From Burkholderiales bacterium (GTDB lineage: Bacteria; Pseudomonadota; Gammaproteobacteria; Burkholderiales; Burkholderiaceae_C): DNA of 64,000 nt. Shown here in pieces: positions 3,104-21,022 of the stretch (position 1 is its first letter; every line of letters starts with the position of its first letter). A program made the translations under genes and the position numbers. A model generated the notes under the pieces. The model saw only the letters and a list, made by a program, of their open reading frames with translations, had not been told where the DNA came from and searched no databases. The stretch lies in assembly GCA_028872015.1 (NCBI GenBank), contig JAGWLO010000008.1, forward strand, positions 1 to 64,000, written 5' to 3'.

Positions 3104-3172
3104 CGGGCCCTCCCCTGCCTGCGGCTTGCCGGCGCAGGTACTTTGCTTCAGAGTGAGGGTCTGTACAAGCCC

Positions 3173-4513
3173 ATGCATCGGCGATCCATGTCCGGCGAAC
3201 AGGTCCCGAACGTCACCGAGCTGCTTCACCAGGCCATGCAGGCCCATGCGGGCGGCCAGCTCGATAGCGCCGAGGGCCTGTACCGCCAGGCGCTGCACCA
3301 GGCACCGCAAGACCCCGACGCGCTGCACCTGTTTGGCGTGCTTGAAGCCCAGCGCGGTCGCCACAAGGCGGCGGCCGATCTCATCCGGCAGGCCATCGCC
3401 GTGCGGCCGATGGAGCCCATGTTCCACAACAACCTGGGCAACGTCTGGCTCGAACGCAGCTGCGTGGCCGACGCCGAGGCCTGCTACCGCCAGGCCCTGG
3501 CGCTGGCGCCGATGCGGCCCGACGTGCTCAACAACCTGGGCGTGCTGCTGAGCCTGACCGAGCGCCGCGAAGAGGGCGAGCAGCTGCTGCGCCGCGCCGC
3601 CGAGCTGGCGCCGCAGTTCGGCGATGCGCGGCAGAACCTGGCCAACCACCTGCTGCGCGGTGGCCGCGTCAACGAAGCGCTGCAGCAATGCCTGGAAGGG
3701 CTGCTGATCGCGCCGCGCAGCCGCACCCTGCGGCGGCTGCTGGGCATGCTCTACATCGCGCTCGGTCGCATCGACGAAGCGACGGCGCTGTACCGGGGCT
3801 GGCTCGAGCTCGAACCCGACAGCGTCGAGGCCCGGTTCCTGCTGTCGGCCTGCAGCGGCAGCGATGTGCCCGACCGCTGCCCCGACCGCTTCGTGACCGA
3901 GACCTTCGACGGCTTCGCCGACAGCTTCGACGCCAAGCTGCAGCAGCTGTCGTACAAGGCGCCCGAGCTGGTGGCGGCCGCCGCGGCACGTCATCTCGGG
4001 CCGCCCGGGGCGCGGTTGGCCGTCGTCGACGCGGGCTGCGGCACCGGCCTGTGCGGGCCGCTGCTGAAGCCCCATGCGAGGCACCTGGTCGGCGTCGACC
4101 TCTCGGCCCCGATGCTGAGCAAGGCCCGCGCACGTGAGGTCTACGACGAGCTGGTCGCGGGCGAACTGGTGTCGTTCCTGGCCGGCCGGCCCGCCTGCGC
4201 CGAGGCCCTGGTGTCGGCCGACACGCTGTGCTACTTCGGGCGGCTCGAGCCCTTCGCCGCGGCGGCCCGCACGGCGTTGCGAGACGGGGGGTTGCTGGTG
4301 TTCACGGTCGAGGCCCATGCCGACGGGCCGGGCGAACCCGACTACAGGCTGCAGCCGCACGGCCGCTATAGTCACCGCCGCTCCTACGTCGAAGCCGCCC
4401 TGCGCGGTGCAGGCCTGGCACCGGTGGAGGTGCAGCCCGCGGTGCTGCGTATGGAAGTCGAGAAGCCGGTCGACGGGTGGGTCGTCTGTGCCCGCGCAGG
4501 CGGGCCGGCCTGA
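3173..4513 (+). CDS. TPR-repeat class I SAM-dependent methyltransferase
   Basis: 446 residues from ATG 3173; an alternative ATG at 3188 removes five residues. Residues about 15-225 form a row of TPR-like helical pairs (EGLYRQALHQAPQDPDAL, NNLGNVWLERS, LNNLGVLLSL). The C-terminal half begins with FDGFADSFDAKL at 245-256 and has a Rossmann SAM-binding motif VDAGCGTGLCG at 285-295 and an LRDGGLLVFTVEA strand later, as in class I methyltransferases. The substrate is unknown. The gene is divergent from the sheath fusion, with 69 bases between, and lies 48 bases before vgrG. A role in modifying a T6SS part is possible but unproven; it could also be a bystander. Confidence 0.8.
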   Translation: MHRRSMSGEQVPNVTELLHQAMQAHAGGQLDSAEGLYRQALHQAPQDPDALHLFGVLEAQRGRHKAAADLIRQAIAVRPMEPMFHNNLGNVWLERSCVADAEACYRQALALAPMRPDVLNNLGVLLSLTERREEGEQLLRRAAELAPQFGDARQNLANHLLRGGRVNEALQQCLEGLLIAPRSRTLRRLLGMLYIALGRIDEATALYRGWLELEPDSVEARFLLSACSGSDVPDRCPDRFVTETFDGFADSFDAKLQQLSYKAPELVAAAAARHLGPPGARLAVVDAGCGTGLCGPLLKPHARHLVGVDLSAPMLSKARAREVYDELVAGELVSFLAGRPACAEALVSADTLCYFGRLEPFAAAARTALRDGGLLVFTVEAHADGPGEPDYRLQPHGRYSHRRSYVEAALRGAGLAPVEVQPAVLRMEVEKPVDGWVVCARAGGPA

Positions 4514-4561
4514 GCGCCGGCCGGCAGCCGCCGATTGCCGCGAGGACGCCCCCGAGGACCT

Positions 4562-6565
4562 ATGCCCGTCACTTCGTCCGTGCAGATGCAGCTCGTCACG
4601 AGCCCCGGCCAGCTGATGTTCCGGTCGATGTCGGGCCACGAGGAGGTGTCGCGCCTGTTCGAGTACCAGATCACCGCCGTGGCCGATACGGGCGACCTGC
4701 TGGCCGACGACTACCTGGGCAAGCCGATGGCGGTGTCGGTGGGCGGCGCGGACGACGCACCGCGCTGGTTCAACGGCATCGCCGCCTCGTTCGGGATCGA
4801 AGGCGGCGACGGGCGCTACTTCAGCTATCGCATCACCCTGCGACCCTGGTTGTGGCTGCTGACGCGCGCGGCCAATGTGCGCATCTTCCAGGCCCAGTCC
4901 ACGCCCGACATCGTGAAGGCCGTGATCCAGGCCTACCAGGGCGAAGTCGTCGACGAGCTCAGCGGCAGCTACGCGCCGCGCAACTATTGCGTGCAATACC
5001 GCGAGACGGACTTCAATTTCGTCAGCCGGCTGCTGGAAGAAGAGGGCATCTTCTACTTCTTCCGCCACAGCGCCGACAAGCACCAGCTCGTGCTGGCCGA
5101 CAAGGCCACCTCGAACGTACCCTTCCCGGGTTTCGAGACCATCGCCTTCAACCAGGGCGACAACAGCGTGGTCGATTTCGCCGGCATCAGCGAATGGCAG
5201 ATGCGCCACGAGATCCAGTCCGGCAAGACGACGCTGCGCGACTACAACTTCGAGACGCCGGCCACCGACCTGACCGCGCAGGTGGCCTCGCACCGCACCC
5301 ACGCCGAGGCCGCGCACGAGGTCTACGACTACCCGGGCCTGTACGGCGCCGCGGGCGACGGCAGCGCGCGCGCGGCCCTGCGCATGGAAGAGGCCGAGAG
5401 CCGCTTCGGCCGCTACACGGGCCAGGGCAACAGCACCGGCCTGGTGGCCGGCTGCAAGTTCACGCTCGACGGTCACCGGCGCAGCGACCAGAACACCGAC
5501 TACGTCGTGCTCGCCACCCAGATCGACATGAAGCTGGCGCCCTACGAATCGGGCGAGGGCGAGGAGACGCTGTTCCTGTGCCGCTTCACGGTCCAGCAGT
5601 ACACCGAACCTTTCAGGCCGGCCCGCATCACGCGCAAGCCCTCGGTGGCCGGCCCGCAGACCGCAGTGGTGGTGGGCGATATCGGTGAAGGCGACATCTC
5701 CACCGACGCGTACGCACGCGTCAAGGTGCAGTTCCACTGGGACCGGCTGGGCACGAAGGACGCCAACAGTTCGTGCTGGGTGCGCGTGGCCACGCCCTGG
5801 GCCGGCAACGGCTGGGGCATGGTCTCGCTGCCGCGCATCGGGCAGGAGGTGGTGGTCGACTTTCTCGAAGGCGACCCCGACCAGCCCCTGATCACCGGCC
5901 GTGTCTACAACGCCAGCCAGGTGCCCCCCTACGAGCTGCCCGCCAACGCCACCGTCAGCACCGTCAAGAGCCGCAGCAAGAAGGGCGGTGCCACCGAGTT
6001 CAACGAACTGCGCTTCCAGGACGACCCGGGCAACGAGCACCTGTTCATGCAGGCGCAGAAGGACAAGTTCGAGCTCGTGCGCAACACCGTCAACACCGAG
6101 ATCGGCAAGGACCAGCTGCTCACCGTCAAGGGCAAGCGCCTGGAGAAGATCGCCGACGAGGTGCACTTCAATGCCTCCAAGGACATGAAGCAGAAGGTCG
6201 GCGGCAAGCTCAGCCTCCAGGTCGGCCAGAACATGCTGATCGCCACCGACGGCCTGCACAGCCTGAAGGCGGCGCAGGACATCACCGCCAAGTCGGGCAC
6301 CAATTACTCCATCGATGCCGGCACCAACATCCACGTCAAGGGCGGCGTCAACGTCACCATCGAAGCCGGCGTGATGCTCACGCTGAAGGCGGGCGGCAAC
6401 TCGGTGGTCATCGGGCCGTCCGGGGTCTCGATCACGGGCTCGCCGCTGGTGATGATCAATTCGGGCGGCAGCGCCAGCGGTGCCAGCCCCGTGGCCCCCA
6501 CGGCCCCCGAAGCCCCCGACGATCCCGAAGCCTTCAAGGACCCCTTGGACGGCAAGCACCGCTGA
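4562..6565 (+). CDS. vgrG: VgrG (TssI) T6SS spike protein
   Basis: 667 residues. VgrG trimers form the puncturing spike on the Hcp tube and carry effectors outward. The N-terminal gp27-like part contains NYCVQYRETDFNFVSRLLEEEG near residues 141-162, the family signature. The gp5-like OB fold follows (RVKVQFHWDRLG, SCWVRVATPWAG, GWGMVSLPRIGQEVVVDF). Repetitive beta-helix and a DUF2345-like tail run from about 480 to 640 (IGKDQLLTVKGK, AGTNIHVKGGVNVTIEAG). It ends in a Pro/Ala tail with no obvious toxin domain, so it is probably structural. The ATG at 4562 follows a GAGGA at 4554-4558. The stop overlaps the next start (TGATG). Confidence 0.96.
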   Translation: MPVTSSVQMQLVTSPGQLMFRSMSGHEEVSRLFEYQITAVADTGDLLADDYLGKPMAVSVGGADDAPRWFNGIAASFGIEGGDGRYFSYRITLRPWLWLLTRAANVRIFQAQSTPDIVKAVIQAYQGEVVDELSGSYAPRNYCVQYRETDFNFVSRLLEEEGIFYFFRHSADKHQLVLADKATSNVPFPGFETIAFNQGDNSVVDFAGISEWQMRHEIQSGKTTLRDYNFETPATDLTAQVASHRTHAEAAHEVYDYPGLYGAAGDGSARAALRMEEAESRFGRYTGQGNSTGLVAGCKFTLDGHRRSDQNTDYVVLATQIDMKLAPYESGEGEETLFLCRFTVQQYTEPFRPARITRKPSVAGPQTAVVVGDIGEGDISTDAYARVKVQFHWDRLGTKDANSSCWVRVATPWAGNGWGMVSLPRIGQEVVVDFLEGDPDQPLITGRVYNASQVPPYELPANATVSTVKSRSKKGGATEFNELRFQDDPGNEHLFMQAQKDKFELVRNTVNTEIGKDQLLTVKGKRLEKIADEVHFNASKDMKQKVGGKLSLQVGQNMLIATDGLHSLKAAQDITAKSGTNYSIDAGTNIHVKGGVNVTIEAGVMLTLKAGGNSVVIGPSGVSITGSPLVMINSGGSASGASPVAPTAPEAPDDPEAFKDPLDGKHR

Positions 6566-9152: not shown

Positions 9153-10787
9153 ATGATCCTGCTGAGGGTGCTCAGCTACAACGGTGCGCGCGTCGACGGG
9201 CCCTCGGCCCAGTTCGACGAACTCGGGGGCACCATCGGCCGTGCCGACACCAACCAGCTGGTGCTGCCCGACCCCGAGCGCACGATCTCGCGCGTGCATG
9301 CGCGGGTGGTGTTCCGCAACGGCGGCTACGGCGTGGTCGACAACGGCAGCAACCCGATCAGCGTCAACGGCATGGCGCTGGGCTCCGGCCGCGAGCAGGC
9401 GCTGAAGCCGGGCGACGAGATCCAGATCGGTGGCTACCTGCTGGCGGTCAGCGCGGCCGCCGCGCCTGCGGCCGGTGACGACCCCTTTGCCGATCTCTTC
9501 GGCGACGCGCCGGGCCTGGCCGTGCCCGCCGTGGCACCGGCCCCGGCGTGGGCGGTGCCGGCCGTGCCCATCACCCCGGTCTCGCCGGTGGCACCGCCCG
9601 CACCGCCCGCACGGCGCCCGGCGCCGCCGCCGGCCCTGAGCCCCGGCCATATCCCCGAAGACTGGGACCCGTTCGCGCCCGATCCCGTCGAGGCGCCGGC
9701 TGCCGGCCTGCCCGCCGACGCGCTGGCCGGCCTGCCGCAGGGCGGCGACGATTCGCTCGATCAGCTCTTCGGCCTGGGGCCCGCGCCGCTGCAGGGCGAC
9801 CCGCTCGGCGCGGCACCCGCGCAGGCGCTGCTGGCACCGCCCAACATGGCGGGCCACGCCGATGCGCTGCAGGCGCTGGGTCGCCAACCGGTGCTCGCAC
9901 CGGCCAGCCGCAGCGACCACGCCTCGGAGTTGAACACGCCCATGCCGCTGCCGCCGGCGGTGCGGCCACCGGCTGCGCAGCCGGCCCCGCCCCAGCCGCG
10001 CGGCGCGGTGTTCTCGTGGCAGGACCCACCCACCGGCGGCCAGGTCGTGACGCTGCCCGGCATCCACCGCGCCGCGCCGGACGTGCCGGCCGCGCCGCTG
10101 GCCACGGCCGCGCCGGCGCGACCGGCCCCCGCGGCGCCCGCGGTTCCCGTGACGTCGGCCGCGGCTGCCATGCCCGCCGCCGCCGATGCCGACGATCTTC
10201 TGGCCGCGCTCCTCGACGGCCTGGGCACGCCCGGGCTGCGCCTGGGCGGCCTCACGCCCGAGACCATGCATCTCGTGGGGCAGCTGCTGCGCGAATCGCT
10301 GCGCGGCGCGGTCGAGCTGCTGGTGGCCCGCGCGGCGCTCAAGCGCGAGATGCGGGCCGAGATGACCATGATCGCGGCGCGCGAGAACAACCCGCTGAAG
10401 TTCTCGCCCAGCGTCGAGGTGGCGCTGCAGCACCTGCTGGGCCCGCCTGCGCCCGGCTTCATGCCCGCCGCGCCCGCGGTGCGCGATGCCTTCGACGACC
10501 TGCGGGCCCACCAGCTGGGCGTGATGGCGGGCATGCGGGCCGCGCTCGAGGGCGTGCTGCAGCGCTTCGACCCGGCGCAGCTCGAGGCCAAGCTGACGCG
10601 CAAGTCGGCCATCGCCAGCCTCATCCCGGCCACGCGCAAGGCTCGGTTGTGGGAGCTTTTCCAGGAGCTGTTCTCGCAGCTGCAGACCGAGGCCCAGGAC
10701 GACTTCGACGAGCTGTTCGGCAAGGCCTTCCTGCGCGCCTACGAAGACCAGCTCGACCGCCTGCAGGGCGAGCCCGGGCCGCGCTAG
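9153..10787 (+). CDS. tagH: FHA-domain T6SS protein (Fha/TagH type)
   Basis: 544 residues. Residues about 20-95 form an FHA domain that binds phosphothreonine: GGTIGR with Arg30, then ISRVHARV with Ser46 and His49, and a DNGSNPISVNG loop. A Pro/Ala-rich linker of about 240 residues follows. The C-terminal domain (about 360-530) matches the conserved tail of T6SS FHA proteins: LLRESLRGAVELLVARAALKRE, then ENNPLKFSP. Such proteins are the readers of the PpkA/PppA switch and bind a phosphorylated partner to promote assembly. Kinase, phosphatase and a likely TssL ligand are all encoded nearby. The ATG at 9153 follows GGAG at 9142-9145. Confidence 0.92.
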   Translation: MILLRVLSYNGARVDGPSAQFDELGGTIGRADTNQLVLPDPERTISRVHARVVFRNGGYGVVDNGSNPISVNGMALGSGREQALKPGDEIQIGGYLLAVSAAAAPAAGDDPFADLFGDAPGLAVPAVAPAPAWAVPAVPITPVSPVAPPAPPARRPAPPPALSPGHIPEDWDPFAPDPVEAPAAGLPADALAGLPQGGDDSLDQLFGLGPAPLQGDPLGAAPAQALLAPPNMAGHADALQALGRQPVLAPASRSDHASELNTPMPLPPAVRPPAAQPAPPQPRGAVFSWQDPPTGGQVVTLPGIHRAAPDVPAAPLATAAPARPAPAAPAVPVTSAAAAMPAAADADDLLAALLDGLGTPGLRLGGLTPETMHLVGQLLRESLRGAVELLVARAALKREMRAEMTMIAARENNPLKFSPSVEVALQHLLGPPAPGFMPAAPAVRDAFDDLRAHQLGVMAGMRAALEGVLQRFDPAQLEAKLTRKSAIASLIPATRKARLWELFQELFSQLQTEAQDDFDELFGKAFLRAYEDQLDRLQGEPGPR

Positions 10788-10811: not shown

Positions 10812-11573
10812 ATGCTGGCACTCGAGGTGGCATTGCTCTCCGACCGCGGTGGCCGCAAGACGAACGAGGACGCCTGCGGCCACTGGCACTCGCGGCAGCA
10901 CCTGTGCTGCGTGCTGGCCGACGGCGCCGGCGGCCACGGCGGTGGCGACGTCGCCTCGCGGCTGGCGGTGCAGGAGCTCATCGGCCGCTTCTCGGAGCAG
11001 CCCTCGTCCGACGCTGCCGGGCTGGACCGCCTGCTGCGCCAGACCAACGACAGCCTGATCAGCCAGCGCGTGCCCGGCACCGCGCGCCAGGACATGCACA
11101 GCACGGTGGTCTGCCTGGTGATCGACTTCGTGGCCCAGCGCGCGCACTGGGCCCATGCCGGCGACTCGCGCCTGTACTGGTTCCGCGGCGGCCGGCTGCT
11201 GCGCCGCACGCACGACCACAGCCTGGTGCAGGGCCTGGTGGACTCGGGCCTGCTGGCGGCCGACCAGCTGCGCACCCACCCCAAGCGCAGCGAGCTGCGC
11301 TCGGCCCTGGGCCTGGCGCCCGAGGTGCTGGAAGTGAGCGCGGTGGACGACAGCGATGCGGTGCTGCCGGGCGACGTGTTCCTGCTGTGCACCGACGGGC
11401 TGTGGGAATACCTGGACGACCCGGTGCTCGAGCGCACGCTGGGCGCGGCCGCGAACCCCGGGGCCTGGATCGGCGAGCTGGCCGCCGAGGTGCGTCGCGC
11501 GGCCAGCCACAAGGCCAGCCACGACAACTTCAGCGCGCTGACGGTCTGGACGCGCGCCGTGCCGGCCGGCTGA
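10812..11573 (+). CDS. pppA: PP2C-family Ser/Thr phosphatase of the T6SS (PppA type)
   Basis: 253 residues, the full size of a PP2C catalytic domain. The metal-binding and catalytic motifs are present in order: KTNEDA near 16-21, LADGAGGHGGGDVAS near 36-50 (DGAGGH in place of the commoner DGMGGH), HAGDSRLYW near 115, CTDGLWEYL near 195 and HDNFSALTVW near 238. In T6SS loci this enzyme removes phosphate from the threonine targets of PpkA and keeps secretion in check. It follows the FHA gene by 24 bases with GAGGAGG at 10798-10804, in the same operon as the kinase at 19106. A second PP2C lies at 43316, outside the T6SS locus. Confidence 0.92.
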   Translation: MLALEVALLSDRGGRKTNEDACGHWHSRQHLCCVLADGAGGHGGGDVASRLAVQELIGRFSEQPSSDAAGLDRLLRQTNDSLISQRVPGTARQDMHSTVVCLVIDFVAQRAHWAHAGDSRLYWFRGGRLLRRTHDHSLVQGLVDSGLLAADQLRTHPKRSELRSALGLAPEVLEVSAVDDSDAVLPGDVFLLCTDGLWEYLDDPVLERTLGAAANPGAWIGELAAEVRRAASHKASHDNFSALTVWTRAVPAG

Positions 11574-11608: not shown

Positions 11609-11995
11609 ATGGGCATGCAGGTCTGCATGGGCGCGATGATGATGTGCACGCAGGGGGCCGCCCCCAGCAGCCTGATCCCGACGCCCAAGACCGTGATGAC
11701 CAGCAGCGTGCTGGCGGCCAACATCATGGACCACATCCCGATCGCCAACATCCCGCCGTTCGGCGTGTGCATGAGCCTGGCCAACCCGACCGTGGCGGCC
11801 GCGACAGCGGCCGCGCTGGGCGTGCTCACGCCGATGCCCTGCGTGCCGAACACGCCTGCGCCCTGGGCCCCCGGCTCGCCCACGGTGCTGGTCGCCGGCC
11901 AGCCGGCGCTGAACGACAGCTCCAAGCTCATGTGCACCTGGGCCGGGGTCATCAGCATCAACATGCCGGGGCAGGTGACGCACCAGATTCCCTGA
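11609..11995 (+). CDS. DUF4280 PAAR-like spike-tip protein
   Basis: 128 residues. It has the DUF4280 pattern: an opening MQVCMGAMMMCTQGAAPS, a central AANIMDHIPIANIPPFGVCMSLANPTV, PCVPNTPAPWAPGSP, and a closing LMCTWAGVISI. Six cysteines lie in these conserved blocks and could hold a metal ion, as in true PAAR domains. PAAR-like proteins sharpen the VgrG tip and can link effectors. Here there is no toxin extension, so this is a bare tip. The ATG at 11609 follows GAAGGAG at 11596-11602. It is the only PAAR-like gene in the window and probably pairs with the VgrG at 4562. Confidence 0.88.
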   Translation: MGMQVCMGAMMMCTQGAAPSSLIPTPKTVMTSSVLAANIMDHIPIANIPPFGVCMSLANPTVAAATAAALGVLTPMPCVPNTPAPWAPGSPTVLVAGQPALNDSSKLMCTWAGVISINMPGQVTHQIP

Positions 11996-12153: not shown

Positions 12154-13491
12154 ATGACTTGGCACAACAAGGTGATGTGGACGGAGGGCATGTTCCTCCA
12201 GCCGCAGCACTTCCAGCAGCAGGACCGCTTCGCTGCGCGCCAGCTCGACGGCCGCATCGCCGCCACCACCGGCTGGCCCTGGGGTTTCGTCTCGCTGCAG
12301 GTCGACGACGCCGCGCTGCTGCAGGGCCGGGTCATGGTCAGCGCCGCGCGGGGCGTGCTGCCCGACGGCGTCATCTTCTCGATCCCGGGCGACGACGCGG
12401 CGCCGGCGGCCTTCGAGGTGCCCGCCGACGCGCGTGACCAGCTCGTCGTGCTGGCGGTGCCGCAGTCGCGCGCCGGCGTGGCCGACAGCGACGTCGAGGC
12501 CGGCGAGGGCGCGATGCCGCCGCGCTTCCGCGTCGCCGATGTCGAGGTGGCCGACATCCACGCCAGCAGCCTGCGCGAGGCGCCGCTGCAGATCGGCCGC
12601 CTCAACCTGCGCCTGATGCTGGCGCGCGATGCCAACGAGGGCTACACCGTGCTGGGCGCGGTGCGCGTGGTCGAGCGCCGCGCCGACGGCCGGGTGGTGC
12701 TCGACAGCCAGTACGTGCCCCCGATGCTGCATGCGCCGGCGCAGCCCGTGCTCGACGGCTACGTGCGCGAAGTGCACGGCATGCTGCACCAGCGCGGCGA
12801 GGCGCTGGGCGGCCGGCTCGCCCAGCCGGGCCGCGCCGGCACGGGCGAGATCGTCGACTTCCTGCTGCTGCAGGTGATCAACCGCTTCGAGCCGCTGTTC
12901 GCCCACCTGCAGCGGCTGCCGGTGCTGCACCCCGAGCGCCTGTACGACCTGTGCCTGGGCCTGGCCGGCGAGCTCAGCACCTTCCGCGAGCAGCGCCGGC
13001 CGGTGCCCTATCCCGAGTACCGCCACGACGATCTGGCGGGCTGCTTCCGCGCCGTGATGGTCGACCTGCGGCAGTCGCTGTCGATGGTGCTGGAGCAGAC
13101 TGCGCTGCCGATCGACCTGCAAGAGCGCAAGCACGGCATCCGCGTGGCCATCGTCTCCGACGTCGAGCTGCTGCGCAACGCGATGTTCGTGCTGGCCGTG
13201 AATGCGCAGATGCCGGGCGAGGCGCTGCGCATGCGCTTTCCCACCCAGGTCAAGATCGGCCCGGCCGAGCGCATCCGCGATCTCGTCAGCCTGCAGCTGC
13301 CGGGCGTGGCGCTGCGCGCGCTGCCGGTGGCGCCGCGCCAGATCCCGTACCACGCGGGCTACACCTACTTCGAGCTCGAGACGCGCGGCAACGAGCTTTG
13401 GAAGCAGCTCGAGGCCTCGGGCGGCCTGGCGATGCACATCGCCGGCGAGTTCCCGGGGCTGGCGCTCGAGTTCTGGGCCATCCGCGCCTGA
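12154..13491 (+). CDS. tssK: TssK baseplate protein
   Basis: 445 residues, the usual TssK length. The N-terminus carries the family signature (VMWTEGMFLQPQHFQQQDRF, residues 7-26). The body has PERLYDLCLGLAGELSTF and ELLRNAMFVLAV segments, and the C-terminal domain has YFELETRGNELWKQL. TssK trimers join the phage-like baseplate to the TssL-TssM membrane complex. About 158 bases separate it from the DUF4280 gene, the largest gap in the operon, so a separate promoter is possible; no convincing box was found there. The ATG at 12154 leads directly into the signature. Confidence 0.97.
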   Translation: MTWHNKVMWTEGMFLQPQHFQQQDRFAARQLDGRIAATTGWPWGFVSLQVDDAALLQGRVMVSAARGVLPDGVIFSIPGDDAAPAAFEVPADARDQLVVLAVPQSRAGVADSDVEAGEGAMPPRFRVADVEVADIHASSLREAPLQIGRLNLRLMLARDANEGYTVLGAVRVVERRADGRVVLDSQYVPPMLHAPAQPVLDGYVREVHGMLHQRGEALGGRLAQPGRAGTGEIVDFLLLQVINRFEPLFAHLQRLPVLHPERLYDLCLGLAGELSTFREQRRPVPYPEYRHDDLAGCFRAVMVDLRQSLSMVLEQTALPIDLQERKHGIRVAIVSDVELLRNAMFVLAVNAQMPGEALRMRFPTQVKIGPAERIRDLVSLQLPGVALRALPVAPRQIPYHAGYTYFELETRGNELWKQLEASGGLAMHIAGEFPGLALEFWAIRA

Positions 13492-13524: not shown

Positions 13525-14838
13525 ATGAGCCAGAGCGATCCCCCGCCCGACCCGTTCGCGGCCTTCGAGTCCGACCGCACCGTCATCAAGCCCAGCGCCG
13601 GCCGGGCCGCGCGCCCGGGTGCGCCGGCCGCCGCGCCGGCACCCGGGCCCGAGACGCCACTGCCCGAGCTGCCCGGCCATGCCAGCCTCAACCCGCTGGT
13701 GCAGGCCGCCGCGCCGCTGCTGAGCGCGGCGCCGCGGCTGCGCGCCACGCTGCGCCACCCCAACCCGGCAGCGCTGCGCGCCACGCTCGTCGAATCGGTC
13801 CGGCGCTTCGAGGCCGCGGCACGTGCGCAGGGGCTGCCCAACGAGCAGGTGGTGGCGGCACGCTACATCCTGTGCACGCTGCTCGACGAGGCCGCCTCCA
13901 GCACGCCCTGGGGCGGCTCGGGCGCCTGGGCCGCGCAGAGCCTGCTCGTGCATTTCCACAACGAGGCCTGGGGCGGCGAGAAGGTCTTCCAGCTGCTCAC
14001 CCGCCTGGCCGAGAACCCGGCCCAGCACCGCAACCTGCTCGAGCTGGTGTACGCCGCGCTGGCCCTCGGTTTCGAGGGCCGCTACAAGGTGCTCGACAAC
14101 GGCCGCGCCCAGCTCGACAGCCTGCGCGAGCGGCTGGCGAACAAGCTGCGCGAGCTGGCCGGGCCGGTGGACCGCTCGCTGTCCACGCAGTGGCAGGGCG
14201 TGGCCGCGGCGCCGGCGCGCCTGGGCGACGGCGTGCCGCTGTGGGCGGTGGCGGCGGTGCTGGCGTTCGTGTTGATGGGCATCTTCCTGGTGCTGCGCCT
14301 GACGCTCAACGCCCAGACCGATGCCACCTTCGGCGCGCTGCAGGCGCTGGATGTGCCGGCCGCCCCCGCCGCGCCGGCCGCGGTGCCTGCGCTGCCCGCA
14401 CCGCCGCGCCTGGCCGTGCTGCTGAAGGACGACATCCGGGCCGGCGCCCTGGCGGTGAGCGACCTGCCCGATCGCTCGATCATCACCCTGCGCGGCGATG
14501 GCGTGTTCGATCCCGGCAGCGCCGACGTGGCCACGCGCGCGCTGCCGCTGTTCCAGCACATCGGCGCGGCGCTGGCACAGCTGCCGGGCACCATCGTGAT
14601 TGCCGGCTACACCGACAACCAGCCCATCCGCAGCCTGCGCTTCCCGTCCAACTGGCACCTGTCCAAGGCCCGCGCCGACAACGTGATGGCGCTGCTGGCC
14701 GGCGCCGTGCAGCCCGCCCGCATGAGCGCCGAAGGCCGCGCCGATGCCGACCCGGTGGCCGACAACGCCACGGCTGCGGGCCGGGCGAAGAACCGGCGCG
14801 TCGAGATCACGCTGCTCGTTGCGGCGCCCCAGCCATGA
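13525..14838 (+). CDS. tssL: TssL (DotU) with C-terminal OmpA-like domain
   Basis: 437 residues. Cytoplasmic DotU domain at about 50-220 (ILCTLLDEAA, TPWG, LVHFHNEAWGGEKVF, FEGRYK), one membrane helix at about 238-257, then a periplasmic OmpA/Pal-like peptidoglycan-binding domain at about 320-435 (IAGYTDNQPI, LSKARADNVMALL, AKNRRVEI). TssL anchors the complex in the inner membrane with TssM. The disordered N-terminus has SDRTVIKP with Thr19. An almost identical DDRTVIRP occurs in the kinase at 19106, and a phosphothreonine TssL-Fha contact is known in Agrobacterium, so Thr19 is a likely switch site. The stop overlaps the tssM start (ATGA). The built-in OmpA domain may matter if TssJ is absent. 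Confidence 0.96.
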   Translation: MSQSDPPPDPFAAFESDRTVIKPSAGRAARPGAPAAAPAPGPETPLPELPGHASLNPLVQAAAPLLSAAPRLRATLRHPNPAALRATLVESVRRFEAAARAQGLPNEQVVAARYILCTLLDEAASSTPWGGSGAWAAQSLLVHFHNEAWGGEKVFQLLTRLAENPAQHRNLLELVYAALALGFEGRYKVLDNGRAQLDSLRERLANKLRELAGPVDRSLSTQWQGVAAAPARLGDGVPLWAVAAVLAFVLMGIFLVLRLTLNAQTDATFGALQALDVPAAPAAPAAVPALPAPPRLAVLLKDDIRAGALAVSDLPDRSIITLRGDGVFDPGSADVATRALPLFQHIGAALAQLPGTIVIAGYTDNQPIRSLRFPSNWHLSKARADNVMALLAGAVQPARMSAEGRADADPVADNATAAGRAKNRRVEITLLVAAPQP

Positions 14839-17800
14839 AGCGATTCCTCCAATGGCTGCTCGGCCCGGCCGTGATCGGCACGCTGGGCCTGCTGGCGCTG
14901 TCGGCGCTGGTGTGGTGGGTGGGGCCGCTGGTGGCCATCGGCGCGGCGCGGCCGCTCGACGCGGTGTGGGCGCGGGTGCTGGTGCTGCTGCTGCTGTGGG
15001 CGGCCTGGATCGGGCGCCTGGCCTGGCAGGCCTGGCGCCGCCGCCGCACCAACACCGTCCTGCTGCAGGGCCTGGGCGCCGGCCCCTCGGCGGCGAGCCA
15101 GGAAGCACAGGTGCTGGCCGCCCGCTTCAACGAGGCCGTGCTGCGCCTGAAGGCGGTGCGCGGGCGCGGTTGGCCGGGTGCGCTGGGCGGCGGCCAGTAC
15201 CTGTACGAGCTGCCGTGGTACGTGTTCGTCGGCGCGCCGGGCTCGGGCAAGACCACGGCGCTGCGCAACGCCGGGTTGCAGTTCCTGCTGGGCGATGCGG
15301 CGGGCGCGGTGCAGGGCGTGGGCGGCACCCGCAACTGCGAGTGGTGGTTCACGCAGGACGCGGTGCTGATCGACACCGCGGGCCGCTACGCCACCCAGGA
15401 AAGCGACAAGGACGTCGACGCCAGCGCCTGGGACAACTTCCTCGCGCTGTTGCGGAAGACGCGGCCGCGGCAGCCCATCAACGGCGTGCTGCTCACCGTC
15501 AACATCCAGGACCTGCTGCAGCAGGGCGCGGCCGAGCGCCAGGCGCACGCGGCGCAGTTGCGCGCGCGGCTGCACGAGCTGGGCGCCAAGCTCGGCGTGC
15601 GTGCGCCGGTCTACGTGCTGGTGACCAAGGCCGACCTGATCGGTGGCTTCAACGAGAGCTTCGAGGCCCTGTCCAAGGAGGACCGCGACCAGGTCTGGGG
15701 CTTCACCTTCGCGCCCGACCGGCCGGCGGGCGAAGACCCGATCGCCGACTTCGGCGTGCTCTACCAGCAGCTGCAGCAGCGGCTGGTGCAGCAGCTGGTG
15801 GACCGGCTCGAGGGCGAGCGCGACGTGCTGCGGCGCAGTGCCATCTTCGCCTTCCCGCAGGAGTTCGCGGCGCTGCAGCCGCTGCTGGGCGATTTCCTCG
15901 CGCTCGTGTTTTCGGGCGGCGGCGGGCTCGAGCAGGCGCCGCGCGTGCGCGGCGTCTACTTCACCAGCGGCACGCAGGAAGGCTCGCCGATCGACCGCGT
16001 GATGGGCGCGCTGGGCCGCGCCTACGGCATCGACCCACGCGCCGCCGCCATCGCCCCCGGCCGTGGCAAGAGCTTCTTTCTGCACCGGCTGCTCAAGGAG
16101 GTGGTGTTCGCCGAACGCGGCCTGGGGGCCACCAACCCGGTGGCGGTGCGCCGACGCCGGCTGCTGCGCGCCGCGGCCCTGGGCGCGATGGCTTTGGCTT
16201 CGGTGGTGCTGATGGCGGGCTGGGCGATCAGCCGCGCGCGCAACCTCGACCAGGCCGCGCAGGTGGCGGCGCGGCTGCCGGCGCTGCGCCAGGCCGTGGC
16301 CGGCCTGCCGCCGCCCGCCAACGTGGACGTCGCGCCGCTGGCCCTGCCGCTGGCGCAGGTGCGCGACGCCGCGCAGGTGGCCGGCTTCGACATCGCGCAC
16401 CCGCCGCTGCTCAACGGCCTGGGCCTGTACCAGGGCGACAAGCTCGACGCCGCAGCGCAGATCGCCTACCAGCGCCTGCTGGCCAAGGCCCTGGTGCCGC
16501 GCGTGGCCAGTCGGCTCGAAGAGCGGCTGCGCGCGGCCAACGCGGGCAATCTCGAGAACGCCTACGAGGCACTCAAGGCCTACGTCATGCTGTACGAGCC
16601 GGCGCACTTCGATGCCCAGGCGCTGAAGGCCTGGATCTCGATCGACTGGGACGCCAATTACGCCAGCCTGGCCCCCGAGCAGCGCGCCCAGCTCGACGCC
16701 CACCTCGACGCGATGCTGGCGCTGGGCCCGCCCCACCCCACGGTGCCGCGCGACGACGCGCTGGTGGCCAGCGTGCGCGACATGCTGGCGGCGTACCCGC
16801 TCGAGTACCGCATCTACAGCCGCATCAAGCGCCAGTACCGCGCCGGCGAGCTGCCCGACTTCACGGTGGCCGGCGCCGCCGGCCCGAACGCGGCCCAGGT
16901 GTTCGAGCGCGCCAGCGGCAACCCGCTGACCCAGGGCATCCCGGGCCTGTTCACGCGCGAGGGCTACCGCAAGTACCTGCTGCCCGCGGTGCAGAAGACG
17001 ACACCGGTGCTGGCCAGCGAAGAGCCCTGGGTGCTGGGCCTGAAGCGCGACCCGGCACGGCTGCGTGATGCCACGCTGGGCAGCGCCGTCACCGACAAGG
17101 TGCGGCGCCTGTACTTCGAGGACTACATCAAGACCTGGGACGCCTACCTGGCCGACGTGCGGCTGGTGCGCCTGTCCGACCCGGCGCGCGCGCTGGCGGT
17201 GGCGCGCCTGCTGTCGGCGGTGGATTCGCCGCTCGTGAGCTACCTGCGCGGCGTGGCCGAGCAGACGCACCTGGTGCAGGCGCCCGGTGCCCTGGACAAG
17301 GCGCTGGGCGCGGCCAAGGCGAACGCAGCGCAGCTGGCCGGCGCCGCGCCCGTGGACGTCACCGGCGGCGGCCCGCTCGAGCGCATGGTGGACGACCACT
17401 TCGCCGGCATCCAGCGCCTGGTCACGGGTGACCCGCCGCCCATCAACGACACCGTCAAGCTGTTCGGCCAGCTGTACGCGCAGCTCGCGGCGGTGGACGC
17501 GGCCAAGAAGAGCCAGTCACCCCCGCCCCCGCCGGCCGCGGTGGAGCAGGTGAAGATCGCCGCCGCGCAGCAGCCGGCGGCCGTGCGCGCCATGCTGGAC
17601 CAGCTCTCCGCCGCGGCCGTGGGCCAGAGCCGCGGCGCCGAGCTGCAGGGCTTGAGCGCCGAGCTCAAGCCCATCACCGACATCTGCAACCGGTCCATCA
17701 CCGGGCGCTACCCGTTCGCCTCGGGCGCCAAGGCCGACGTGCTGCCCGAAGACTTCGGCCAGATGTTCGGCGCCGGCGGGCTGCTCGACGATTTCTTCCA

Positions 17801-18338
17801 GCGCCGGCTGGCGGCCCTGGTCGATGTCTCGGGGCGCAACTGGGTCTACAAGCCGCTCACCGACGGCACCCGGCCGGTGGCGCCGGCGGCGCTGGCCGAG
17901 TTCCAGCGCGCGCAGCGCATCCGCGACGTGTTCTTCCGCAACGGCGGCAAGGTGCCCGCACTTCGCTTCGAGCTGAAGCTGGCCGAGATCGACCCCAGCC
18001 TGAAGGAGCTGGACATCGATATCGACGGCCAGGTGCAGAAGCTCACCGCGGGCGGGCCGTCGATCACGGTCGCGTGGCCGAGCCAGCGCGTGGCCTCCAC
18101 CATCCGGCTGGGCACCGGCCTGGGCGCCGCCGGCCCGCAGGTGGTCACCGAGGGCCCGTGGGCGCTGTTCCGCCTGTTCGACCGCTTCCAGGTGCAGCCC
18201 TCGGCCGTGCCCGAGAAGTTCAGCGTCATCCTCAACCTCGACGGCAAGCGGGCGCGGCTCGAGGTGCTGGCGGCCAGCGTCTTCAACCCGTTCCAGATGC
18301 CCGAGATCAAGCAGTTCCGCTGCCCGGCGGCGCTGTGA
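14835..18338 (+). CDS. tssM: TssM (IcmF) inner-membrane T6SS protein
   Basis: 1167 residues, full length. Two N-terminal membrane helices lie at about 11-35 and 45-65, and a third at about 450. Between them is a cytoplasmic NTPase domain with a Walker A GAPGSGKT at 133-140 and an IDTAGRY Walker B-like strand at 179-185. Not all TssM proteins keep the Walker A; this one does. The large C-terminal periplasmic part ends with a beta-sandwich that normally contacts TssJ (WALFRLFDRFQVQPS). The ATG overlaps the tssL stop by four bases, and the stop overlaps the tagF start (GTGA). No tssJ lipoprotein gene is seen in the window. Confidence 0.97.
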   Translation: MKRFLQWLLGPAVIGTLGLLALSALVWWVGPLVAIGAARPLDAVWARVLVLLLLWAAWIGRLAWQAWRRRRTNTVLLQGLGAGPSAASQEAQVLAARFNEAVLRLKAVRGRGWPGALGGGQYLYELPWYVFVGAPGSGKTTALRNAGLQFLLGDAAGAVQGVGGTRNCEWWFTQDAVLIDTAGRYATQESDKDVDASAWDNFLALLRKTRPRQPINGVLLTVNIQDLLQQGAAERQAHAAQLRARLHELGAKLGVRAPVYVLVTKADLIGGFNESFEALSKEDRDQVWGFTFAPDRPAGEDPIADFGVLYQQLQQRLVQQLVDRLEGERDVLRRSAIFAFPQEFAALQPLLGDFLALVFSGGGGLEQAPRVRGVYFTSGTQEGSPIDRVMGALGRAYGIDPRAAAIAPGRGKSFFLHRLLKEVVFAERGLGATNPVAVRRRRLLRAAALGAMALASVVLMAGWAISRARNLDQAAQVAARLPALRQAVAGLPPPANVDVAPLALPLAQVRDAAQVAGFDIAHPPLLNGLGLYQGDKLDAAAQIAYQRLLAKALVPRVASRLEERLRAANAGNLENAYEALKAYVMLYEPAHFDAQALKAWISIDWDANYASLAPEQRAQLDAHLDAMLALGPPHPTVPRDDALVASVRDMLAAYPLEYRIYSRIKRQYRAGELPDFTVAGAAGPNAAQVFERASGNPLTQGIPGLFTREGYRKYLLPAVQKTTPVLASEEPWVLGLKRDPARLRDATLGSAVTDKVRRLYFEDYIKTWDAYLADVRLVRLSDPARALAVARLLSAVDSPLVSYLRGVAEQTHLVQAPGALDKALGAAKANAAQLAGAAPVDVTGGGPLERMVDDHFAGIQRLVTGDPPPINDTVKLFGQLYAQLAAVDAAKKSQSPPPPPAAVEQVKIAAAQQPAAVRAMLDQLSAAAVGQSRGAELQGLSAELKPITDICNRSITGRYPFASGAKADVLPEDFGQMFGAGGLLDDFFQRRLAALVDVSGRNWVYKPLTDGTRPVAPAALAEFQRAQRIRDVFFRNGGKVPALRFELKLAEIDPSLKELDIDIDGQVQKLTAGGPSITVAWPSQRVASTIRLGTGLGAAGPQVVTEGPWALFRLFDRFQVQPSAVPEKFSVILNLDGKRARLEVLAASVFNPFQMPEIKQFRCPAAL

Positions 18339-19048
18339 CGGCCGCCAGGGTCGCGCCGGGCTGGCACGGCAAGCTGCCGTCGCTGGGCGACTTCGCAGCG
18401 CGTCGGCTCGACAGCGACTTCATCGAGCCCTGGGACGGCTGGCTCGCCCGCGGCCTGCAGGCCCTGCGCGACGCCGCGCCCGAGGCCTGGCTGGCCGCCT
18501 ACCTGGGCTCGCCGAGCTGGCGCTTCGTGCTCATGCCCGGCGTGTTGCCGGGGACGGCCGGGCGCCAGGGCTGGGCCGGGGTGCTGATGCCCTCGGTCGA
18601 CCGCGTGGGGCGCTACTTTCCGCTCACGCTGGTGCTGCCCTTGGGCAGCGGGCCGGCGACGACGCAGCAGATGAGCGGCCTGTGGCCCTGGTTGGGCCGT
18701 CTCGACGAGCTGGCGCGCGATGCGCTGTACGAGGACTGGACCGCCGAGCAGCTGGAAGCGCAGCTGGCGCAGTTGGCGTTGCCCGAGCTGGGCGCGCCCG
18801 GTGTCGCCCGCAGCCCGCCTGCGGCGGCCGAGCGCGCCGGCGACCTGGCCGAGGTGGCGCCCGGCGCCGCGGCCGACCCCGCGGCCTGGATCGGCGCGGC
18901 GGCGCAATCGGCCTGGGCCGCGCAGGCGGTTGGCTGCGCGTACTGGCATGCCTGCCCGGATGCGGGGCCGTCGCGCCTGCTCGTCTCGCGCGGGCTGCCG
19001 GCCGCTGCCGCGATGGCGCAGCTGCTCGGCGCTGCGGCCACAATGTGA
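18335..19048 (+). CDS. tagF: TagF T6SS accessory protein
   Basis: 237 residues from a GTG at 18335 that overlaps the tssM stop (GTGA). The N-terminus has the TagF signature: GWHGKLPSLGDFAARRLDSDF, then WRFVLMPGVLPGT, GVLMPSVDRVGRYFPLTL and CAYWHACPD near the end. TagF is a post-translational repressor; in Pseudomonas aeruginosa it holds back assembly and acts alongside the threonine phosphorylation pathway, possibly by binding the FHA protein. Its position between tssM and the kinase, in one coupled unit, fits a regulatory role. Some TagF proteins are fused to PppA; here they are separate. Confidence 0.93.
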   Translation: MTAARVAPGWHGKLPSLGDFAARRLDSDFIEPWDGWLARGLQALRDAAPEAWLAAYLGSPSWRFVLMPGVLPGTAGRQGWAGVLMPSVDRVGRYFPLTLVLPLGSGPATTQQMSGLWPWLGRLDELARDALYEDWTAEQLEAQLAQLALPELGAPGVARSPPAAAERAGDLAEVAPGAAADPAAWIGAAAQSAWAAQAVGCAYWHACPDAGPSRLLVSRGLPAAAAMAQLLGAAATM

Positions 19049-19105
19049 GCGGCGCATGCCTGCGCCCACTGCCTGCTGCCCACGCCCACCGCACGCCCGC
19101 CGGCC

Positions 19106-21022
19106 ATGACCTCCGACGCCAACGAAGACGACCGCACGGTGATCCGGCCGCTCCGCGCCGACGAGGCGAAGACCCAGGCCGGCGGCCCGCCGCCGGCGCA
19201 CGACGCGATGGCCGGCAACCTGCCCGTGGGCACGCGGCTGGGGGAGTTCGAGATCACCGCCCTCATCGGCGAGGGCGGCTTCGGCATCGTCTACCTCGCG
19301 CACGATCACTCGCTGCAGCGCCGCGTGGCGCTGAAGGAGTACATGCCCTCGTCGCTGGCCGCGCGCGCCGGCGGCAGCCAGGTGCAGGTGAAGAGCGCGC
19401 GCCATCGCGACACCTTCGAAGCCGGGCTGAAGAGCTTCATCAACGAAGCCCGCCTGCTGGCCAGCTTCGATCACCCGTCGCTGGTCAAGGTGTACCGATT
19501 CTGGGAGGCCAACGGCACCGCCTACATGGTGATGCCCTTCCTGGAGGGCACGACCCTGAAGGACGTGCTCAAGGCCCTGGACCGCCGGCCCGACGAAGCC
19601 TGGCTGCGCAGCCTGCTGGGGCCCCTGACCGAGGCACTGCTGGTGATCCACGGCGCGCAGTGCTACCACCGCGACATCGCCCCCGACAACGTGATGCTGC
19701 TGCCCAGCGTCAACCGCTGGCTGCTGCTCGATTTCGGTGCCGCGCGACGCGTCATCGGCGACATGACGCAGGCGTTGACGGTGATCCTGAAGCCGGGCTA
19801 TGCGCCGGTGGAGCAGTACGCCGAGATCCCGGGCATGAAGCAGGGCGCGTGGACCGACGTCTACGCGCTGGCCGCGGTGGTGTACTTCGCGATCACCGGA
19901 CGCACGCCACCGCCCTCGGTGGGTCGGCTGCTGAACGACACCTACGTGCCGCTGGTGGAATGCGCGGCCGGGCGCTACAGCGCAGGCTTCCTGGCGGCGA
20001 TCGACCATGCGCTGGCCGTGCGGCCCGAGGCCCGCACCCAGAGCATCGGCGAACTGCGCCAGGCACTGGGGCTGGCCCACGTGACGTTCGACGTCTACAG
20101 CACGCAGCCGCTGCCGGTGGGCATCGAGTTGCCCGAACGCGCGCAGGGTCTGGCCGCCCCGCCGATCACGCCGACCGCCCTGCGGCCGCCGTTACCGGCC
20201 TCGCCCTCTTCCCCGCCCGTACCGCCGCCAGCCGCCGTGGCCGCGTCGATGCTTGCGCAGGAGGGTCCGGTGCCGCGTGCGGCGAGTCCCGCGGCCGCCA
20301 GGGGCGCCGGCGCCTTGGTCGGCGCCGGGGCCGCGGCGGTGCTGCTGGGTGCGCTCGGCTTCGGCGCCTACAAGCTGCTCGCACCCGCGCCGCGTCCGCC
20401 GGCCCCCGCGGTGGCGGCCGCGCCGCCGCTGACGTCGGCGCCTGCTGCCCCGACGGCTGAACCCGCACCCGCACCCACGCCCGCACCCGCAACGCCCCCC
20501 GCCGCCTTCGACGTCGGCCACGAATTCGAGCGTGTGCTGGAAGGGCAGGCCAGCGGCTACAACGTGCAGCTGCGTACCAACCGCCAGAGCTACCGCATCG
20601 GCAAGGACGAGCTGCGATTCAGCGTGCTGGCGGCCCGCGCCGGCTACCTGTATGTCTTCGTCTACGGCGCGGACAAGACGCTCACGCAGCTCTACCCGAA
20701 CGCGAACTCGGGCCCGGTGCGCGTGGTGCCGGGGCAGATGCTGACGCTGCCGCGCGGGTCACAGGAGTACTGGTTGGCCGCCGACCCGCCGGGGCCCGAG
20801 GAAGTGCTGGTGATGGTCTCGCCGCTGAAGCGCGACCTGGGCGCGCTGCACCCGCGCCAGGAAGGCTTCGTCACCGTCTATCCCACCGGCGCCGCGGCTG
20901 CGGCGCAGGCCAGCGTGGGCGGGGCGGCGCCGGCGCTGGCCGGGCGCGTCGTCTGCCCCGCCAGCGGTGCCTGCGACGCCAGCTACGGGGCGGCGCTGGC
21001 CAAGGTCGAGATCGTCCGGTGA
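19106..21022 (+). CDS. ppkA: PpkA-type Ser/Thr kinase with C-terminal DUF4384-like domain
   Basis: 638 residues. Kinase domain about 45-340: glycine loop GEGGFG 55-60, VALKEYMP with Lys77, catalytic loop HRDIAPDN at 188-195 (Ala in place of the usual Lys after HRDI), and DFGAAR at 209-214. A Pro/Ala linker leads to one membrane helix at about 398-418. The extracytoplasmic end (about 470-600: FSVLAARAGYLYVFVYGAD, LTLPRG, EEVLVMVS) looks like DUF4384. PpkA-type kinases start T6SS assembly by phosphorylating a threonine read by the FHA protein. The N-terminus holds DDRTVIRP (Thr11), the same motif as in TssL, a likely autophosphorylation or docking site. Its stop overlaps greB (GTGA). Confidence 0.93.
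   Translation: MTSDANEDDRTVIRPLRADEAKTQAGGPPPAHDAMAGNLPVGTRLGEFEITALIGEGGFGIVYLAHDHSLQRRVALKEYMPSSLAARAGGSQVQVKSARHRDTFEAGLKSFINEARLLASFDHPSLVKVYRFWEANGTAYMVMPFLEGTTLKDVLKALDRRPDEAWLRSLLGPLTEALLVIHGAQCYHRDIAPDNVMLLPSVNRWLLLDFGAARRVIGDMTQALTVILKPGYAPVEQYAEIPGMKQGAWTDVYALAAVVYFAITGRTPPPSVGRLLNDTYVPLVECAAGRYSAGFLAAIDHALAVRPEARTQSIGELRQALGLAHVTFDVYSTQPLPVGIELPERAQGLAAPPITPTALRPPLPASPSSPPVPPPAAVAASMLAQEGPVPRAASPAAARGAGALVGAGAAAVLLGALGFGAYKLLAPAPRPPAPAVAAAPPLTSAPAAPTAEPAPAPTPAPATPPAAFDVGHEFERVLEGQASGYNVQLRTNRQSYRIGKDELRFSVLAARAGYLYVFVYGADKTLTQLYPNANSGPVRVVPGQMLTLPRGSQEYWLAADPPGPEEVLVMVSPLKRDLGALHPRQEGFVTVYPTGAAAAAQASVGGAAPALAGRVVCPASGACDASYGAALAKVEIVR

Follow-up and report, generated by a model that had tools for sequence, protein, structure and literature searches.

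What could be the role of an almost identical heptapeptide in two proteins of one type VI secretion system (T6SS), the membrane protein TssL and the Ser/Thr kinase PpkA? The question is raised by a 64,000-nucleotide stretch of DNA of a Burkholderiales bacterium (GenBank assembly GCA_028872015.1, contig JAGWLO010000008.1, positions 1 to 64,000), which is referred to below as the window. An earlier note on this DNA had singled out TssL residues 17-23 and PpkA residues 9-15, with Thr19 and Thr11, as near-identical, and the translations of the open reading frames (ORFs) bear this out:

13525..14838, plus strand: tssL, long form, 437 amino acids, with Pfam PF09850 (DotU, residues 57-259) and PF00691 (OmpA) domains; over the cut-off of NCBIfam TIGR03350
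13573..13593, plus strand: the TssL motif DRTVIKP, residues 17-23, with the Thr19 codon at 13579-13581
19106..21022, plus strand: ppkA, Ser/Thr kinase, 638 amino acids, with Pfam PF00069 (Pkinase, residues 49-269) and PF14326 (DUF4384, residues 495-573)
19130..19150, plus strand: the PpkA motif DRTVIRP, residues 9-15, with the Thr11 codon at 19136-19138

These two peptides are the only matches to the pattern [DE].TV[ILV].P in the six frames of the window. They are examples of a widely conserved threonine tag, which is probably phosphorylated by PpkA and read by the FHA protein encoded in the same operon and would be a common address label of the T6SS on-switch. The motif is present, conserved and Thr-selective, and three proteins of the pathway that share no homology carry it, each at a different position; from these sequences we infer its phosphorylation, the docking of the FHA protein and an effect on assembly.

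Thr19 is located in the cytoplasmic tail of TssL, ahead of the DotU domain that starts at residue 57. The tail is predicted to be unstructured, with residues 1-5 and 15-53 having a predicted local distance difference test score (pLDDT) below 50, and the disordered N-terminus claimed by the earlier note thus agrees with the structure prediction in the case of TssL.

The comparison was based on two sets of loci. A search of 200 genomes of the order, 200 of the family and 274 of the class located TssL in 50, 64 and 64 of them, respectively, and the first set of 121 loci (the window plus 60 places from the family, 40 from the order and 20 from the class, with neighbourhoods of at most 19.8 kb) was drawn from the best-scoring of these, a few being skipped. 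The second set comprised the best 80 loci of named genomes scanned with the FHA C-terminal domain, so that their selection rested on FHA and was independent of the TssL motif. The first TssL profile picked OmpA paralogues in several loci and was replaced by a DotU-only profile, which detected TssL in 179 of the 201 loci (121/121 of the first set and 58/80 of the named loci); the 22 named loci with no TssL in the fetched stretch were left outside the TssL counts. Three named loci (L177, L202, L228) duplicate L137, L040 and L068, and 176 TssL remain after their removal, while the shuffle expectations were computed on sets still containing them. Since the sequences are related and not independent, p-values overstate the certainty.

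In the first set, the pattern [DEQGNSH].T[VIFL][IVLM][KRMIVQ]P occurred 122.6 times per 100,000 residues in TssL, 35.0 times in PpkA and 28.6 times in FHA proteins, as compared with 1.6 in TssM and 0.76 in unannotated ORFs. The TssL tails were then scored for T[VILFM][VILFM].P within the 90 residues before DotU, with an optional T-Q at +1 (Pseudomonas). The motif, including the T-Q form, was found in 99 of the 112 sampled loci with an FHA gene in the fetched flanks (duplicates removed), namely in 30/38 loci of the family, order and window, 17/19 of the class and 52/55 of the named genomes (44/55 without the T-Q form). It was present in 2 of the 25 TssL from genomes where no T6SS_FHA_C gene was found, in 18 of the 39 loci with FHA neither near nor shown absent, and in 1.6% of shuffled tails. 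An earlier split, by any of the three pathway genes in the stretch, gave 60/75 with versus 7/46 without, and all seven exceptions have an FHA_C gene elsewhere in the genome. The comparison with shuffled sequences and with other proteins rules out chance as the source of the shared peptide.

The consensus of 122 TssL tails has D at -2 (87 tails), R at -1 (87), V, I, F or L at +1 and I at +2 (78), followed by K, M or R at +3, P at +4, P or A at +6 (116) and G at +7 (111). In an alignment of long TssL (25 of 26 chosen sequences, L136 being left out), D9, P10, F11, T19 and P23 are invariant in 25/25, while the region from residue 27 to DotU is mostly variable and gapped; most of these sequences came from motif-bearing loci, hence the invariance should not be taken as a frequency. 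Conservation of the threonines in orthologues, which the earlier note had named as decisive, was thus observed for most FHA-linked TssL, and, as described below, for many but not most PpkA.

Several TssL tails with an altered acceptor were also encountered. In L031, L092 and L066 the motif frame is kept and Thr is lost (GFVPPNPGG, GGIVRPTPG), with FHA nearby; a motif-like N-terminus in L066 belongs, by eye, to RpoA and is a coincidence. In L095 and L096 (genomes G188 and G151) the frame is kept with Asn in place of Thr (DFNLLKPTPGG), FHA is present and no close PpkA was found. A loss of Thr together with the kinase was considered for this pair, the best PpkA-like match having 36% identity, and was left as a lead, as both come from one genus in which divergent kinases exist. 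A joint loss of both motifs in G292, a genome of the same genus, was dropped, because the PpkA relative of G292 (L234, 77% identity) keeps DRTVV; the TssL of this genome may belong to another T6SS lineage.

The residue before φ-φ-x-P (φ, hydrophobic) was next tabulated with Thr not required, for D, E, Q, G or N at -2 in TssL and D or E at -2 in PpkA. In TssL, this slot holds T in 120, N in 2 and S, A and P in one each of 125 cases after duplicate removal (T 123 and S 1 of 128 before it), and in the PpkA flanks T in 34, A, V and P in one each and S in none of 37. As a whole, TssL tails contain more Ser than Thr (7.7% vs 5.8%), and PpkA flanks contain similar amounts of both. FHA domains recognise phosphothreonine specifically (PMC3953482; papers are cited here and below from passages of their text). 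The choice of Thr over Ser therefore fits a site read by FHA, or one of a Thr-specific kinase, better than a plain docking peptide.

The latter explanation was suggested by a second conserved element of the TssL tail, the tripeptide DPF, which lies ten residues upstream of the acceptor and is common to TssL tails and FHA linkers:

13549..13557, plus strand: DPF of TssL, residues 9-11, invariant in the TssL alignment
9480-9488 and 9666-9674: DPF of the FHA linker

DPF was found in 87 of 179 TssL tails (3.4 expected), with D exactly 10 residues before Thr in 62 of them, and in 88 of 128 FHA linkers (12.6 expected); DPF[ASGE] occurred in other proteins as follows: TssM 0, TssK 1, TagF 1 and PppA 0. 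The element may serve as a sticker, or as a site for a partner that TssL and FHA have in common. Together with the conserved G at +7 and P or A at +6 of TssL, it could indicate that the tail motif and DPF form a phosphorylation-independent docking peptide, for example for the baseplate or another partner. This seems quite improbable to us, as the acceptor is Thr and hardly ever Ser (120 vs 1 in TssL, 34 vs 0 in PpkA) and the motif recurs in the kinase itself, both of which point to phosphothreonine.

Among the 90 kinases with a full domain, 89 of them unique, the strict form [DE].T-φ-φ-x-P was detected beside the kinase domain in 30 of the 89 (approximately 0.4 expected from shuffles), 17 times within the N-terminal 90 residues and 13 times within 60 residues after the domain; the kinase domains themselves gave two matches. 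The position of the site differs: it is N-terminal in the relatives of the window (DDDRTVIRP), while 9 of the 12 Pseudomonas loci with a kinase match have it as [DE].T[VLI][VLI]xP, starting 10-17 residues past the kinase domain. Of the six closest PpkA relatives read (73-78% identity), all but one carry the strict form; the exception has DRTVV and lacks the Pro. With the pattern relaxed to [DE].T, then a hydrophobic residue or R, Q or K, then a hydrophobic residue, 69 of the 90 kinases, or of the 89 unique ones, are matched (5.5 expected). Four to six DxT[RQK][FVIL] copies (e.g. DKTRIAP) were found in the kinase tails of eight loci (L038, L143, L146, L147, L161, L190, L215 and L225), and such repeats are possible multivalent FHA docking sites.

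The candidate reader, and a third place at which an acceptor-like threonine occurs, are provided by the FHA protein:

9153..10787, plus strand: fha/tagH, with an FHA domain at residues 27-93 (Pfam PF00498) and T6SS_FHA_C at 367-533 (PF20232); over the cut-off of NCBIfam TIGR03354
9240..9290, plus strand: FHA R30 (9240-9242) and S46 (9288-9290), the expected phosphothreonine contacts
10365..10367, plus strand: FHA Thr405 in EMTMIAARENNPLKFS, a conserved acceptor-like Thr

The columns of R30 and S46, i.e. the Arg and Ser that would contact phosphothreonine, are invariant in 21/21 FHA domains, and a further alignment (A3) used 16 of 21 sequences. When the PDB was searched with single sequences, neither the FHA domain nor the C-terminal domain gave a match. 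In the predicted model the FHA domain is good and the region around Thr405 is too weak to judge its exposure.

The C-terminal threonine is present in 133/133 FHA proteins with the NNPLK anchor (130/130 after duplicate removal), 5 of 138 proteins lacking the anchor having been set aside. Ile follows at +2 in 121/133 (118/130 deduplicated), D or E precedes at -2 in 78, and the context is TTIQP or TMIRP in many class and named loci. In Pseudomonas, T-M-I-R-P was found in 8 of 14 loci, with 134-136 residues after the Thr in all 14. This would fit Thr362 of P. aeruginosa Fha1 if that protein has 497 amino acids, the length we take it to have, so that 135 residues follow Thr362. Judged by position and context, the column is likely to be the known PpkA phosphosite (Thr362, Thr438 or Thr640, depending on the species); Thr362 is also conserved in Teredinibacter (PMC2699552). 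The linker of the FHA protein gave a less uniform picture. T-φ-φ-x-P occurs in 21 of 138 linkers (9.9 expected for 128 shuffled), approximately 17 of which have a G[DE]-type T-φ-I-x-P copy and are betaproteobacterial by eye, and the acceptor slot is not Thr-selective there (T in 10/38). On these counts, a TVIRP copy was rejected as a general feature of the linker; the window has none.

Taken together, these data make it fairly probable that TssL, PpkA and FHA share an acceptor motif of PpkA that is read by the FHA domain. According to this explanation, the T6SS threonine phosphorylation pathway would use D-x-T-φ-φ-x-P as a short linear motif marking its acceptor sites, and PpkA would phosphorylate the Thr in the disordered TssL tail, in its own tail and in the FHA protein, where the site has the similar form T-x-I. 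Docking on the phosphothreonines through its R30/S46 pocket, the FHA domain would then carry the FHA scaffold to both the kinase and the TssL-TssM complex, and the action of PppA would reverse this. Of the FHA-read phosphoswitch proposed by the earlier note, the conserved, Thr-selective motif and the retained phosphothreonine contacts of FHA stood, while phosphorylation and FHA binding of the two peptides and their competition for one pocket are no more than inferred.

A number of observations weigh against this explanation. The motif is missing from some FHA-linked TssL (8/38 in the family, order and window, 2/19 in the class, L139 and L140, and 3/55 in the named genomes, L171, L182 and L188), and a weak form of it is present in the two FHA-less TssL mentioned above. 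Most of the kinases examined (59/89) are without the strict motif, and the FHA linker of the window has no TVIRP copy. In Acidovorax citrulli, Fha T640A alone abolishes T6SS killing (PMC12607579), so that the Fha site is essential in this species whatever the TssL and PpkA sites do. The pattern itself was tuned on the data, having been widened after they were seen, with the T-Q form added after the Pseudomonas loci had been looked at. The residue at +3 varies, being mostly K, M or R in TssL and V, Q, R or A in FHA_C. Position +3 after the phosphothreonine is the main selectivity position of FHA domains, and K, M or R there is not known to be typical of their ligands. Hence the shared part of the motif may mainly reflect recognition by the kinase.

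Because of this difference between the three proteins, the main rival is that the motif is a substrate consensus of PpkA only, neither TssL nor PpkA being read by FHA, and that the copy in the kinase tail serves an autophosphorylation regulating the kinase. The common part, acidic at -2 and hydrophobic at +1 and +2 with a variable +3, is what such a consensus would look like; a review has PpkA autophosphorylating, on a conserved serine (PMC10482370), and in Serratia Fha Thr438 is stated to be the sole target of PpkA (PMC6082577), which speaks against the generality of a TssL site as well. We nevertheless regard the consensus-only explanation as unlikely: in Agrobacterium, Fha binds phospho-TssL and loses this binding upon R30A/S46A exchange (PMC3953482), both residues are kept here, and the tandem copies in the kinase tails of the eight loci look like docking arrays.

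The link between FHA and the motif is also sensitive to phylogeny. On the TssL tree (FastTree), the presence of FHA changes only six times, and after phylogenetic correction the association is not significant (six independent pairs, mean 2.4 for and 0 against, median p 0.5). The association could therefore be due to common descent, and the case rests on conservation within variable tails, on Thr selectivity and on recurrence in three unrelated proteins. That the motif is no more than an inherited feature of one TssL clade that has drifted, its likeness to PpkA arising by chance, is a very remote prospect, being largely excluded by the shuffle expectations, by conservation inside otherwise variable tails and by the two different places of the motif in PpkA.

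An extension of the FHA-read acceptor motif may be put forward as a tentative possibility, namely that the assembly of the T6SS starts from a multivalent network of phospho-motifs, in which kinase activity condenses the membrane complex, the scaffold and the kinase in one place. The disordered tail of PpkA would act as an autophosphorylated docking array for FHA, with one copy here and four to six DKTRI-type copies elsewhere, each TssL subunit would contribute one site, and the FHA scaffold would add its own sites and the DPF stickers common to TssL. If true, the motif would be a general sequence code across Proteobacteria and not a rhizobial peculiarity.

The setting of the motif is a locus of the pathway, and the presence of an FHA reader, a phosphatase and TagF in the operon, as had been stated earlier, is confirmed by Pfam and NCBIfam matches. 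In addition to fha, tssL and ppkA, it includes:

10812..11573, plus strand: pppA, PP2C-type phosphatase (Pfam PF13672)
11609..11995: PAAR-like DUF4280 gene between pppA and tssK (Pfam match; IglG model below cut-off)
12154..13491: tssK, operon partner
14835..18338, plus strand: tssM, membrane partner of TssL, over the cut-off of NCBIfam TIGR03348
18335..19048, plus strand: tagF (Pfam PF09867), over the cut-off of NCBIfam TIGR03373

The gene order is fha, pppA, DUF4280, tssK, tssL, tssM, tagF, ppkA, greB, and the kinase, PP2C phosphatase and FHA protein of the PpkA/PppA/Fha threonine phosphorylation pathway lie beside T6SS core genes. TssL is of the long form, with DotU and an OmpA-like peptidoglycan-binding domain (TIGR03350, 158.5 bits against a cut-off of 139.8), and among the named loci aligned it is nearest to two Rubrivivax records (L199, 73%; L203, 77%), which makes a relationship of this Burkholderiales bacterium to Rubrivivax probable. 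PpkA has an HRD motif at 188, a DFG motif at 209 and a hydrophobic stretch from residue 400; its C-terminal DUF4384 (20588-20824) is presumably periplasmic and a possible sensor. Upstream of fha we recognised by eye what we take to be a sheath-like ORF on the minus strand (1724-6559) and a VgrG-like ORF on the plus strand (4535-6565).

A literature search with the peptides RTVIRP, RTVIKP, DRTVIR and TVIRPMPGG gave a sole match, which concerns hepatobiliary cancer, and in further searches by topic the motif is reported in no title or abstract start among the matches listed, most subscription papers and all preprints being outside the scope of the search. Which proteins PpkA targets in T6SS, and how general the phosphorylation of TssL is, is unsettled, different targets having been reported in different species. 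A motif shared by TssL, PpkA and FHA turns this into one testable rule, naming TssL Thr19, PpkA Thr11 and FHA Thr405.

Four known systems can be compared with the window. GarA and OdhI were the best solved matches in a profile search with its FHA domain. In these actinobacterial proteins, the FHA domain is controlled by a Thr in the protein's own N-terminal tail that a partner kinase phosphorylates; the system serves metabolic regulation, not a secretion machine. The PpkA-Fha-PppA systems of P. aeruginosa (Fha1 Thr362) and Serratia (Fha Thr438) have the same gene set as the window and are compared by description only, TssL and PpkA tail sites not being described in the literature passages; TssL of Vibrio alginolyticus is also mentioned as a PpkA target (PMC5995506, PMC10482370).

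The phosphothreonine near the N-terminus of TssL that recruits Fha in Agrobacterium (A. tumefaciens), to which the earlier note had referred, is Thr14, the phosphorylation of which depends on PpkA, and Fha binds DLPpTVVEI (PMC3953482). Alike are the kinase, the FHA reader, the two hydrophobic residues after a Thr of the TssL tail (T-V-V in Agrobacterium) and the very residue numbers of R30 and S46. The Agrobacterium site differs in having D at -3, P at -1, E at +3 and no P at +4, so that DLPTVVE and DRTVIKP have in common T-V and a second hydrophobic residue. It is conserved in the Agrobacterium and Rhizobium species analysed and not in distant TssL (PMC3953482), hence the motif described here is related to, and not simply, the known one; the authors suggest all the same that TssL may be a wider target, and the passages of their paper mention no copy of the motif in PpkA.

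The TssW-PpkA-Fha axis of A. citrulli resembles the window in its PpkA and Fha, whose interaction is strengthened by kinase activity; the sites tested there, in the sections read, are those of Fha, T640 and S391 (PMC12607579). With the kinase of PpkA dead, less Fha is bound and TssL foci are lost, while Fha T640A keeps Fha foci (PMC12607579), a combination to be expected of a recruitment of Fha that is aided by the phosphosites of PpkA itself. Autophosphosites of PpkA that dock FHA would explain the PpkA-Fha binding of A. citrulli, and phosphorylation of TssL its TssL foci; the motif would offer a reason why catalysis by PpkA strengthens its binding to Fha.

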